The position numbers were made by a program, and so were the translations under genes. A stretch of DNA of 20,848 nt from a virus, in the IMG/VR virus record IMGVR_UViG_3300042451_002067, positions 1 to 20,848 of that record, one strand, 5' to 3'. Positions within the stretch are counted from its first letter, which is position 1. Each line of letters starts with the position of its first letter. Of this stretch, positions 4,749-11,075 are shown piece after piece. The notes beneath the pieces are model-generated. The model did no database searches, was not told the DNA's origin, and saw nothing but the letters and a program-made list of their open reading frames with translations.

Positions 4749-5006
4749 ATGAGTTTAAAATATTTTGATGAGCTTGTAGACTTTTCCGATTTTCAAGCGT
4801 TGCGGTTGCTGTTTATCCATAAACTTAAGATTGAAGTTTATGGACAACCCATGACGAAAAAAGGAGAAAGCACAAAAGTTAGCCTTGATATTTATGATCT
4901 TAAGGGCAATTTTTTAAAAAGTTTTATAATCCCTGATAACCCGACAACTGAAGCAATGCGATCGCTAGTTGAGCAGCTTAACAGATTAGCTACCAATCAA
5001 CTTTAA
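4749..5006 (+). CDS. hypothetical protein (85 aa)
   Basis: An 85-residue, probably soluble protein with mixed alpha/beta character, running from an N-terminal aromatic-rich stretch (YFDELVDFSDFQALRLLF) to a C-terminal helix (EAMRSLVEQLNRLATNQL). No motif is recognised. It starts 3 bases after the small membrane protein and shares its transcript; AAGGGA lies about 9 bases upstream of the ATG. Its 3' end overlaps the convergent minus-strand frame 4990-5193 by 17 bases, so if both are real they share the last codons on opposite strands. Function unknown. Confidence 0.5.
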   Translation: MSLKYFDELVDFSDFQALRLLFIHKLKIEVYGQPMTKKGESTKVSLDIYDLKGNFLKSFIIPDNPTTEAMRSLVEQLNRLATNQL

Positions 5007-5193
5007 CGAGATTCCCCCCTGCTACCCATCGAGGCGATGACTCTCTCTCGTACTGGACTAATACTTGAAACTGTCCCCCGCTTGCTGGCTTTTTAATTTC
5101 TTCGCTGACAATTTCGCCGATCATCGTTGCGCGATCGCGTGAAATGTAATTGGCTTTTACTTTAGTATGTAGAGAGACATCGGAGAGCTTCAT
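4990..5193 (-). CDS. hypothetical protein (67 aa), antisense to gene ends on both sides
   Basis: A minus-strand frame of 67 residues with balanced composition, unlike a shadow frame: MKLSDVSLHTKVKANYISRD, then TMIGEIVSEEIKK, and an ending GGNLVKVDW. It looks like a small beta-rich domain. No separate plus-strand gene covers the region 5007-5194, which supports it being coding. Its ATG (5193-5191) is one base away from the divergent ATG of the gpG-like gene at 5195, and the gpG-like gene's GGAGAG lies inside its first codons. It has no clear ribosome binding site or promoter of its own. A longer frame to 5283 overlaps the neighbour and is rejected. Function unknown. Confidence 0.5.
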   Translation of the reverse strand: MKLSDVSLHTKVKANYISRDRATMIGEIVSEEIKKPASGGQFQVLVQYERESSPRWVAGGNLVKVDW

Positions 5194-5194
5194 A

Positions 5195-5683
5195 ATGTCG
5201 CGATTTATCAGTATTGACTTTTCGGCTATAGATAATATTTTATCTGAATTGCAAGGCATAAGCGATCGCGCATCAGATCTCAAACCTGTCGCCAGCCTTG
5301 TCGCGCTCGTAATTAGCAGCTATACCGATGACGTTTTTGCAAATGCACCCCGCACGGAATCAGGCGGCATTGCATCCAATGGCTTCTTTTGGGATAGGCT
5401 AAGCGAACCAACATTAAATGCAGAGAATGGAAGGCGGCGTAATGGTCAAATAATGCGAAAAACAGGGGCGTTACTGAACTCACTTCAATCTAGCTCGACT
5501 ACTACTTTTTCGCCGCGAAGCGCCGCTAATTTCTTCCAAGCTGGCAGCGATTTTATTAAATTTGGTACAAACTTGCCGCAAGGATTTAACAATACCAAGC
5601 GCCCCTTTCTAGCTCACACGGATTCGCTTAGTGCGTTGGTTGAGAAGGCGATAGAAAATTATATTTTGACTGGTGAGACTTAA
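5195..5683 (+). CDS. phage virion morphogenesis protein, Mu gpG-like
   Basis: This 162-residue protein resembles the Mu gpG / phage virion morphogenesis family, which acts at the head-tail joining stage. The diagnostic run is W-x-x-L (FFWDRLSEPTL), then basic residues and the segment QIMRKTGALLNSLQSS, then a FGTN element and the final KRPFLAHTDSLSALVEKAI. In the family these correspond to W..L...T, the I/L-x-x-T-G-x-L-x-x-S motif and the RPFL motif. The ATG at 5195 is preceded by GGAGAG with a 7-base spacer, so the upstream part of the frame (from 5150) is not used. The neighbours (gp36-like, F-like) agree with a head-completion role. Confidence 0.68.
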   Translation: MSRFISIDFSAIDNILSELQGISDRASDLKPVASLVALVISSYTDDVFANAPRTESGGIASNGFFWDRLSEPTLNAENGRRRNGQIMRKTGALLNSLQSSSTTTFSPRSAANFFQAGSDFIKFGTNLPQGFNNTKRPFLAHTDSLSALVEKAIENYILTGET

Positions 5684-5712: not shown

Positions 5713-5786
5713 TCCGAAAGGCAGGACTCGAACCTGCTACCTAGTGGTAATGAACCACTGCGCTTACCTCTTGCGCCACATTTCGG
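5713..5786 (-). tRNA. tRNA with CAU anticodon (Met type), slightly irregular
   Basis: A 74-base minus-strand cloverleaf. The acceptor strands CCGAAAT/CTTTCGG pair in six of seven positions, followed by discriminator A. The D stem is GCGC/GCGC, the anticodon stem AGTGG/CCACT has the loop TTCATTA (anticodon CAT at 5752-5750), the variable loop is 5 bases, and the T arm is GCAGG-TTCGAGT-CCTGC. Oddities are a mismatch at the last acceptor pair, three bases instead of two between acceptor and D stem, no base between D and anticodon stems, and U rather than A at position 37. No CCA is encoded. A CAU anticodon could be elongator or initiator Met, or Ile after lysidine modification; I cannot choose. 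It lies between two plus-strand head/tail genes. Confidence 0.62.
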
Positions 5787-9097: not shown

Positions 9098-9126
9098 ATT
9101 ATTGCTTGATATCCTGTATTTGTCAA
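9098..9126 (-). promoter_or_regulatory. strong sigma70-type promoter of the three-gene minus operon
   Basis: Read on the minus strand: TTGACA (9126-9121), exactly 17 bases, AATAAT (9103-9098, 5/6 match). The transcript would start about 25-30 bases before the first ATG at 9065. The sequence around the -10, AATAATAG followed by TCAT two bases later, recurs at the minus promoter near 10990. Confidence 0.7.
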
Positions 9127-9182: not shown

Positions 9183-9779
9183 ATGCTCCAAATCTACTCA
9201 CGCGATCGCTATCTCACCACAATCGAGCCTGTAAGCTATGCGCGATCGCAAAAGTTTAAAGTATTATTCCTGCATCTGCTCGAACGATTAGAGCAACACC
9301 AGTATGAGATCGGCGAATATATTGCACATGAAGGCGATCGCCTATTGCAAGAAATATTAGCTCTGCATAGCTCTACACTTAACTTTAGGGCGATCGCTTC
9401 AGATTATGAACTATTGCAAAATTTATTCACCCGTGACCTGATAGAGCTTAATAAATTTGAGCCATGCGAAGAAGCGCAAAAAGATAGACCGCACCTTGAT
9501 ATTGATCCTGCATATAAACGGTTGAAATTTAGGACAAGTGGCGATCGCTATATGGATGATCTTGCAGATTTAGCCGTTGATCTAGGCAGCTACGATCAAG
9601 CGATTAGCTTAGCAAATCAACTCACGCAGACACAAATTAGTAATTTCCTGTTTAGATACGTCGAGCGAAGCAGACCGATTGATCAGCTAATTAACGAGCA
9701 AAATAAAGAGTATTTCTTTAAAGAATGGCTGCAAGACGACTGGAATAAGGATTATATGAGCAAGGTATTTAACTCATGA
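9183..9779 (+). CDS. hypothetical protein between tail tube and tape measure (198 aa)
   Basis: A mostly helical, charged protein of 198 residues. Residues about 60-85 contain LNFRAIASDYELLQNLFTRD. A close variant (IDLKAIASNYPLLEQIFIAR) occurs in the gene at 11157, so the two are probably related. Genes between the tail tube and tape measure usually encode tail assembly chaperones, often two. Size and helical character fit, but I see no slippery frameshift site and no family motif, so this is inference. The ATG is preceded by AAGG at 6 bases, and a perfect TATAAT occurs at 9152-9157 without a convincing -35. The gene diverges from the minus operon promoter and its stop is 3 bases from the convergent gene at 9783. 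Confidence 0.6.
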   Translation: MLQIYSRDRYLTTIEPVSYARSQKFKVLFLHLLERLEQHQYEIGEYIAHEGDRLLQEILALHSSTLNFRAIASDYELLQNLFTRDLIELNKFEPCEEAQKDRPHLDIDPAYKRLKFRTSGDRYMDDLADLAVDLGSYDQAISLANQLTQTQISNFLFRYVERSRPIDQLINEQNKEYFFKEWLQDDWNKDYMSKVFNS

Positions 9780-9782
9780 AAA

Positions 9783-10001
9783 TTAATTATTTGTTTTCTT
9801 CTTAGCTCTATAACGCCTATTCTTTTCTACTTGTGTTAAAGGTTGATCACCTAATAGGGGACGATGTGCGGGGAGATCGCCATCGGTACAAGTAAAACCA
9901 CATTTACAGCGATATTGCACTGCTCCTGATTTGGCTTGTACCCCATTGCGGCGCATAGGGCGATCGCAATGGTATGGGTTTGCGGGATTAGGTTTGGGCA
10001 T
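9783..10001 (-). CDS. small zinc-binding protein with InsA-like cysteine pattern (72 aa)
   Basis: The 72-residue product has H11-C12, then C32-K-C34 and C38, set in PYHCDRPMRRNG and QYRCKCGFTC. This spacing resembles the N-terminal zinc ribbon of transposase-associated InsA proteins and related DNA-binding small proteins. The C-terminus is strongly basic (VEKNRRYRAKKKTNN). No catalytic domain follows, so it is not a transposase. There is no good ribosome binding site and no room for a promoter between its ATG and the terminator hairpin at 10029-10063, so expression must come through that terminator from the promoter at 10298, or be very low. It may be controlled by attenuation. Confidence 0.58.
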   Translation of the reverse strand: MPKPNPANPYHCDRPMRRNGVQAKSGAVQYRCKCGFTCTDGDLPAHRPLLGDQPLTQVEKNRRYRAKKKTNN

Positions 10002-10028
10002 TGGGTTAAGTAATTAATTGTGAATATT

Positions 10029-10063
10029 AAAAAAGCAGTCGATCAAAGATCGACTGCTTTTTT
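10029..10063. terminator. intrinsic terminator / possible attenuator upstream of the zinc-binding gene
   Basis: A 16-bp inverted repeat (10029-10044 with 10048-10063) with a 3-base loop, A run on the left and T run on the right, hence bidirectional. On the minus strand it stands 27 bases in front of the start codon of the gene at 10001, between that gene and its only visible promoter. Confidence 0.85.
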
Positions 10064-10100
10064 AGTGTGTCCCTTATTATTACGCCTAGGGTAAGATAGG

Positions 10101-10120
10101 TTTGAATAGTTGTCCTCTAT
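10101..10120. repeat. direct repeat, copy A
   Basis: TTTGAATAGTTGTCCTCTAT. Copy B at 10219-10237 is the same except for one missing C. The spacing is 118 bases, both copies lying inside the candidate minus-strand RNA. Confidence 0.7.
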
Positions 10121-10218
10121 TTCCCTCGTGTTACGGCTTGCGGGTAGTCGGGTTTACAATTTTCCTTTCAATGCTTTGCAGTTTTGCGTCTGGTTTTTAA
10201 GTACGTTTGTTATACACA

Positions 10219-10237
10219 TTTGAATAGTTGTCTCTAT
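10219..10237. repeat. direct repeat, copy B
   Basis: TTTGAATAGTTGTCTCTAT, matching copy A at 10101-10120 with a single-base deletion. Only two copies are present and the spacing is too long for a CRISPR unit. Confidence 0.7.
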
Positions 10238-10269
10238 GTGGTTCGAGTTTTCTTCGCCCCATGAATTTA

Positions 10270-10298
10270 AATATAGTTGATTACTCTAGTAATGTCAA
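10270..10298 (-). promoter_or_regulatory. strong minus-strand promoter with palindromic operator in the spacer
   Basis: Minus strand: TTGACA (10298-10293), 17 bases, TATATT (10275-10270). The spacer contains the inverted repeat ATTACT-CT-AGTAAT (plus-strand reading), well placed for a repressor to block RNA polymerase. It drives the candidate RNA at 10263-10029. Confidence 0.62.
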
Positions 10299-10434
10299 CC
10301 ATTTATAAAAAAATAATTTCGCGCACAAAAAAAGACGACCTCGCGATCGCCTTAATTCTCAAAAACATCCACAATCAAAAACTGAGTCGCATTTCCACAT
10401 AGTCTATTTTCAATCTCTAATAAAATATAGCATG

Positions 10435-10453
10435 AAAAAAGCGCTCTCAATTG
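10435..10453 (+). repeat. 19-bp direct repeat, left copy
   Basis: AAAAAAGCGCTCTCAATTG, identical to 11057-11075. Together the copies bracket the two-gene minus operon, its promoter and its terminator. Confidence 0.75.
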
Positions 10454-10463
10454 AGAGCGCTTT
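10435..10463 (-). terminator. intrinsic terminator of the RHH operon
   Basis: Perfect 26-bp palindrome (10438-10463), followed on the minus strand by a run of six T. It begins 2 bases after the stop of the ribbon-helix-helix gene. Its left 19 bases (10435-10453) are repeated exactly at 11057-11075. Confidence 0.8.
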
Positions 10464-10464
10464 C

Positions 10465-10647
10465 CTACTCTGTGAAGTAATCAATTAAAATGCTTTCGAC
10501 TAATTCCGAATTGCTGACACCTCTAGATTTAGCAACGTCTGACACTGTTTTAATTACGACAGGATTAAGGCTATAGGAGGCTGTAGCCTTGACTGTTTCG
10601 GGCGGTAGCTTAGGTCTACCGCCCCCATGGTTACCGCCTCTAGGCAT
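10465..10647 (-). CDS. small ribbon-helix-helix (CopG-like) DNA-binding protein
   Basis: The 60-residue product ends with a ribbon-helix-helix pattern. The strand ATASYSLNP is followed by helix VVIKTVSDVAKSRG and helix VSNSELVESILIDYFTE, the arrangement of CopG/Arc-type dimeric repressors that insert a beta ribbon in the major groove. The N-terminus has a glycine-rich, AT-hook-like GGGRPKLPP. I chose the ATG at 10647, which overlaps the stop of the upstream gene by 8 bases; a GTG at 10671 is an alternative that would add 8 residues. It is the second gene of a minus-strand pair and ends 2 bases before its terminator. It may repress its own promoter at 11016-10987 or related phage promoters. 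Confidence 0.68.
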   Translation of the reverse strand: MPRGGNHGGGRPKLPPETVKATASYSLNPVVIKTVSDVAKSRGVSNSELVESILIDYFTE

Positions 10648-10951
10648 TGCGCCCCATCCCCCATCCTCCACGCTTTGTCCAGTTGTAATCGCGATAGTCT
10701 TCAGGAGTGCAATCTTTAAAACTGTGTTTTGGCTCGTAATTTTTTGCGTATTCTGATTGTGGTTTACGGAATTTTAGCGACTCAACTGCGTTTGATCCCT
10801 TTGACTCTTTTGAACGCCCATCAACCAGGGTCACCTTGAAAAAATCATCTGCGATCTTTTTGATCGATTTGATTGCGACACCTTCAACCCAAGGTGTCTT
10901 TCTTAAATTACAAGCGTAAGCTTGTGCGACTGTAACGACTTCCATTTCCAT
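10640..10951 (-). CDS. hypothetical protein (103 aa), partner of the RHH gene
   Basis: A 103-residue protein. The first half forms a plausible small domain (MEMEVVTVAQAYACNLRKTP, then VEGVAIKSIKKIADDFFKVT). The second half is basic and aromatic, with YEPKHSFKDCTPEDYRDYNW and a Gly-rich end. No known motif. AGAGGA lies about 8 bases before the ATG, and a second Met two codons in is also possible. The tight overlap with the downstream RHH gene and the own promoter mark a two-gene unit. Small proteins paired with an RHH regulator are often toxins or other accessory factors, but nothing in the sequence proves a toxin. Confidence 0.58.
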   Translation of the reverse strand: MEMEVVTVAQAYACNLRKTPWVEGVAIKSIKKIADDFFKVTLVDGRSKESKGSNAVESLKFRKPQSEYAKNYEPKHSFKDCTPEDYRDYNWTKRGGWGMGRNA

Positions 10952-10986
10952 GGTTTTGTTCCTCTGTTTGTTTAACTCAATGATCT

Positions 10987-11016
10987 ATTATTGATCGACA
11001 CTATAGGTTTTGTCAA
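10987..11016 (-). promoter_or_regulatory. promoter of the RHH operon with shared operator-like motif
   Basis: Minus strand: TTGACA (11016-11011), 18 bases, AATAAT (10992-10987). The spacer contains TATAGTGTCG (11005-10996), which is also in the spacer of the minus promoter at 17285-17257. Confidence 0.6.
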
Positions 11017-11056
11017 TAGTAAAACTAAAGATATTTGAAACTAATTTTCAGCCAAT

Positions 11057-11075
11057 AAAAAAGCGCTCTCAATTG
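11057..11075 (+). repeat. 19-bp direct repeat, right copy
   Basis: Exact copy of 10435-10453. Here the sequence after the repeat, GAGAGGCGCTT, makes only an imperfect hairpin with it (one bulged base), so this copy looks like a decayed or partial terminator. Confidence 0.75.

Follow-up and report, generated by a model that had tools for sequence, protein, structure and literature searches.

We tentatively conclude, with close to even confidence, that a minus-strand RNA predicted near the middle of a phage genome comes from a moron-type accessory unit that lacks its usual protein gene. (The window that we analyzed, at 20,848 bases, is the complete IMG/VR record.) In our proposal, an upstream terminator and a sigma-70-type promoter with an operator in its spacer would drive an RNA of ~235 nt. 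This RNA would be untranslated and essentially unstructured, and would end at a strong terminator. That terminator would cut the adjacent zinc-ribbon gene off from the promoter, which would leave the gene with readthrough transcription only, presumably at a low level. Coordinates are given in Table 1.

Table 1. Features of the candidate unit and its surroundings in the window.
Feature	Coordinates	Strand	Remarks
Accessory island: minus-strand units flanked on either side by a plus-strand gene	9780..11057	.	content varies among relatives
Upstream intrinsic terminator, AAGGCGATCGCGAGGTCGTCTT + TTTTT	10332..10353	-	first half of the reused terminator-plus-promoter module
Promoter, TTGACA-N17-TATATT	10270..10298	-	near-identical 29-mer in G002, G003, and G007
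Palindrome ATTACTAGAGTAAT in the promoter spacer (putative operator)	10280..10293	.	perfect 6+6
Predicted transcript, ~235 nt	10029..10263	-	coding signal not significant; no structure except the terminator
Repeat copy 1, ATAGAGACAACTATTCAAA	10219..10237	-	19 nt, one G missing
Repeat copy 2, ATAGAGGACAACTATTCAAA	10101..10120	-	20 nt
50-nt segment (copy 2 + 30 nt)	10071..10120	-	94% identical to the G012 51-nt unit
Intrinsic terminator	10028..10064	-	perfect 17-nt arms, 3-nt loop, -22.6 kcal/mol
Zinc-ribbon-like gene, 72 aa	9783..10001	-	12 relatives in viral contigs

The window encodes a Mu-type portal, a tape measure protein, and a dUTPase. Among phages, the best match to the portal is from Pseudanabaena phage Pam2, and GCGATCGC sites are present in the window, so the sequence suggests that the probable host is a cyanobacterium. 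We found no relative of the portal among 386 cyanobacterial genomes, and the matches of the candidate to these genomes were to its terminator hairpin only. A DNA search of known phages gave nothing convincing for the candidate. (Rfam also reported a minus-strand tRNA at 5714-5785, where the phage genes to either side are on the plus strand.)

The original prediction included a TTGACA-N17-TATATT promoter with a palindrome in its spacer, and both features hold up. The boxes (TTGACA at 10298-10293 and TATATT at 10275-10270, with a 17-nt spacer) match the consensus at 11 of 12 positions, and the palindrome is perfect. As a class, promoter-like sites hardly exceed their chance number in this region (8 found vs. 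5.7 expected), but this promoter is conserved in relatives. The palindrome and the -35 box overlap by one base (the first of the palindrome and the last of the box); this position suggests that a repressor bound to the putative operator would block RNA polymerase. Also, ATTACTNNNGTAAT overlaps the promoters of accessory genes in G001-G007.

This promoter belongs to a module, in which a GCGATCGC-type / AAGGCGATCGCGAGGTCGTC terminator is followed by the operator-bearing promoter, and the module is reused in 7 related phage contigs. We list six instances as distinct: one each in L003 and L004 and two each in L005 and L009. (The operator site at L003 4662 is at the same place in L006-L008.) In the relatives, the same hairpin as in the window's upstream terminator lies ~50-60 nt ahead of each operator-bearing promoter listed. 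An ATG led by a Shine-Dalgarno sequence (SD) lies within ~70 nt of the -35 box in L003, L004, and L005 and at L009 3496. At the second L009 instance, no SD was flagged, yet an ORF starting with MATLTEVK is visible in the sequence. The module in relatives precedes small protein genes; in the window alone, it precedes a segment with no recognizable gene. Similarity to the nearest relatives (L004 and L005) ends just beyond the -10 box. In the collections searched, the promoter module was not found outside of related phage contigs. The arrangement of a GCGATCGCGAGGTCGTC terminator and then, ~50-60 nt on, a TTGACA promoter with ATTACTnnnGTAAT is seen ahead of different small genes. Through homology, this terminator and ATTACTnnnGTAAT promoter probably serve as a platform for exchanging cassettes. 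We also noticed a second type of reused promoter: the minus-strand promoters at 10987-11016 and 9098-9126 have TTGACAAA..ATC..CAATAATAG in common, and L003-L008 have this type as well, downstream of their zinc gene.

The module lies in an island whose content varies. L203 encodes a protein 93% identical to the product of the flanking plus-strand gene (9183-9779), but the 1.2 kb that follow contain other genes on the minus strand. In L204 the site is empty: the flanking gene's stop codon is directly followed by the AAAAAAGCGCTCTC hairpin, which in the window is at 11057. The candidate unit has its own promoter and terminator, as morons do, and it sits in a variable insert that separates two genes found side by side in relatives. 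The architecture of the island is moron-like. The protein encoded at 10640-10951 has no close viral relative. Separately, a hairpin at 10438-10463 (AAAAAAGCGCTCTCAATTGAGAGCGCTTT) partially duplicates the hairpin near 11057. The two hairpins bracket a CopG-like gene and a gene for a 103-aa protein, both of which are missing in L203, a pattern suggestive of an insertion event at a terminator.

Phage morons that carry promoters of their own have been described (PMC6814406), and small RNA (sRNA) genes, the anti-sRNAs, are known at moron sites of lambdoid prophages (PMC4104026), so this kind of unit is known. The candidate and these loci are alike in being self-contained promoter-to-terminator units at a variable site flanked by conserved phage genes. 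However, the anti-sRNAs of lambdoid prophages are 51-60 nt long and have conserved 3' regions and tested targets (PMC4104026, PMC6814406), whereas the candidate is ~235 nt and is found whole in one genome only.

We then considered the body of the predicted RNA. The two copies of a 19-20-base repeat that had been described within it are indeed present, at 19 and 20 nt, with 14 nt identical. None of 3000 random sequences generated with a first-order Markov model (matching dinucleotide make-up) contained an exact 14-nt repeat, so the internal repeat is beyond chance. In the collections searched, just one other record, the phage contig G012 (IMGVR_UViG_3300044912_000492), contains the 51-nt unit that matches copy 2 and its neighboring bases. 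In G012, the unit is present as two tandem copies, ~25-130 nt downstream of a promoter that matches the consensus at 10 of 12 positions and upstream of a gene for a 97-aa zinc-ribbon paralog. The alignment of the window to the G012 unit includes a 1-nt indel, which breaks any common frame and argues against coding. The zinc gene itself is 81-88% identical, in aligned pieces, to G012's own ortholog, as compared to 94% for the 50-nt piece. With two leaders compared (n=2), this difference in identity suggests that the piece was either recently exchanged or is constrained. Finding 50 nt at 94% identity, in tandem in G012 and between a promoter and a zinc-ribbon paralog, is more than a random scar predicts, and because the 14-nt repeat is not due to chance, we count it as well against a gene-less shuffled unit. 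According to the original prediction, homologous regions in which the promoter, the repeats, and the terminator were all disrupted would speak against it. What we found is mixed: relatives keep the promoter and operator, with a gene in place of the repeats and the terminator, and in G012 the second repeat is retained in duplicate, without the terminator.

The strong intrinsic terminator at the end of the RNA was correctly predicted, and since A and T runs flank it on either side, it should be usable on both strands. As had also been noted, the zinc-ribbon gene starts 27 nt beyond the terminator (at 10001), and a promoter scan of the interval between them found none. The zinc-ribbon-like protein belongs to no Pfam or PHROG family. 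The upstream DNA of its 12 viral relatives is unrelated to the candidate, with the exception of the promoter module; in L003 and L004, the zinc gene is closely behind another ORF. (In L009-L014, at 5001-5300, or 1426-1725 in L014, the zinc gene is ~87 nt longer, in frame, than the window's. The extra stretch of ~87 nt adds Cys residues and a hydrophobic run.)

If the RNA were an attenuated leader, as one version of the prediction had it, then the terminator would be regulated. The zinc gene can indeed be reached only by readthrough, but regulation by alternative folding is not supported: the best duplex that competes with the terminator has a free energy of -7.4 kcal/mol, versus -22.6 for the terminator, and it was equaled in 63% of shuffles. 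We rejected an attenuator of this type. With no competing fold, what is left is a self-contained terminated RNA (a scar or an sRNA) or protein-dependent antitermination. In the latter case, a protein bound to the repeats would allow transcription to continue through the terminator, similar to processive antitermination in phages; this protein could be an antiterminator or the product of the zinc-ribbon gene itself, which is small and basic. This is possible, if rather unlikely. In its favor, predicted 5' leaders of ~230-262 nt with two repeat copies precede paralogous zinc-ribbon genes in two phages, and the scan left the zinc gene with no other promoter. But besides the missing alternative fold, we found no terminator in the G012 leader, and the repeats are missing from the zinc gene's close relatives.

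Two known phage leaders make useful comparisons. At pR'-tR' of phage lambda, a ~190-nt terminated leader is passed under antitermination by Q. Like the candidate, it combines a strong promoter, an untranslated RNA of ~200 nt, and an intrinsic terminator, with genes beyond. Unlike pR'-tR', the candidate is followed not by a late operon but by a single small gene, encoded on the opposite strand from the structural genes, and it has a palindrome in its promoter spacer. The put RNA of phage HK022 also has a repeated element in a leader before a terminator, but the put sites are stable stem-loops, while the candidate's repeats fold no better than shuffles.

Indeed, the idea of small stem-loops formed by the repeats finds little support. 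By itself, copy 2 has a free energy of -0.8 kcal/mol (z -0.19). For copy 1, a 28-nt probe whose last two bases are GG (GT in the window) gives -4.6 (z -1.63). Neither is clearly beyond shuffles, and the centroid fold keeps neither hairpin. The whole RNA folds with z -2.61, but without the terminator the body has z +0.94, which is slightly worse than shuffles, so the score of the whole RNA is due to the terminator. We therefore rejected a structured RNA or riboswitch. No known RNA family had been apparent, and a covariance search agrees: Rfam, at gathering and at permissive thresholds, gave only chance-level matches around the terminator hairpin. (For compensatory changes, we found one partial homologous locus only.) Of the proposed free-standing small RNA, then, the short promoter-to-terminator minus-strand unit with no recognizable gene stands, but the structured RNA with stem-loops does not.

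A functional phage sRNA, carried as a moron, with its 3' end set by the terminator, could still act through an A-rich unstructured body with two ACAACTATTCAAA copies, either by base pairing (with mRNAs or sRNAs of the host) or by protein binding. The unit is complete from promoter to terminator, the repeat is non-random, and 50 nt are shared with G012 and duplicated there; sRNA genes do occur at moron sites of lambdoid prophages (PMC4104026). Nevertheless, we consider such an sRNA unlikely. The unit is conserved whole in no relative that we found, and its body has no fold. Within the phage, the candidate has no long antisense match, and potential RNA-RNA targets are no better than random (the longest complementary run is 11 nt, as in shuffles). 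Searches for the repeat point the same way. The 15-base repeat core had 65 viral matches, which is about the number expected by chance, as estimated from the size of the collection; these were judged by BLAST and the expected number alone. A gapped repeat pattern had 102 exact matches in bacterial and archaeal genome contigs, which were judged mostly by BLAST, with the 12 lowest-numbered loci and two cyanobacterial loci chosen for reading in context. The flanks of those viewed in context were unrelated. When all 65 and 102 matches were compared by BLAST to the G012 unit and the candidate, the best extended to only 28 nt, at Prochlorococcus-type loci, and we recognized no relative of the repeat among the 102.

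We recognized no gene within the promoter-to-terminator unit. In a 3-periodic coding model, the best frame of the candidate had P 0.08-0.12, no better than random, while six neighboring minus-strand genes had P of 0.05 or less. The repeats were also rejected as coding: the 51-nt unit in G012 is open (GRGQLFKPASPERNNKDDRGQLFKPTCPRRNNKG), but no ordinary start codon was seen, and the window's copy is frameshifted. A 34-aa repeat peptide gave nothing convincing in protein searches against phages and plasmids. Still, relatives have a protein gene at the matching place, and a leaderless ORF of 21 codons (MGRRKLEPHRDNYSNVYNKRT) begins within 1-2 bases of the predicted transcription start, with its ATG ~8 nt beyond the -10 box; after one stop, a second run of 21 codons follows in frame. 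A very small or decayed protein gene is nevertheless very unlikely, as the coding score is not significant, the translated frames have no homolog elsewhere in 16 records of the group, the repeat peptide has none in phage records, and the indel in the 50-nt segment disrupts any shared frame. Least probable of all, and hardly to be expected, is that the 51-nt ACAACTATT unit is a new phage leader element, as RNA or DNA, for the downstream zinc-ribbon protein; if it were, a zinc-ribbon protein that reads the unit would control its own expression via the polymerase's passage through the terminator.

Overall, ordinary cargo shuffling most likely gave rise to the unit, although there is a small chance that it is a real regulatory RNA. 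A moron-type unit without its protein gene would mean that one group of phages shuffles its accessory cargo by reusing a single terminator-plus-operator-promoter module. The common palindrome suggests that several cargo genes of these phages obey one regulator, which is testable. And cargo shuffling may leave behind gene-free transcripts that resemble small RNAs.
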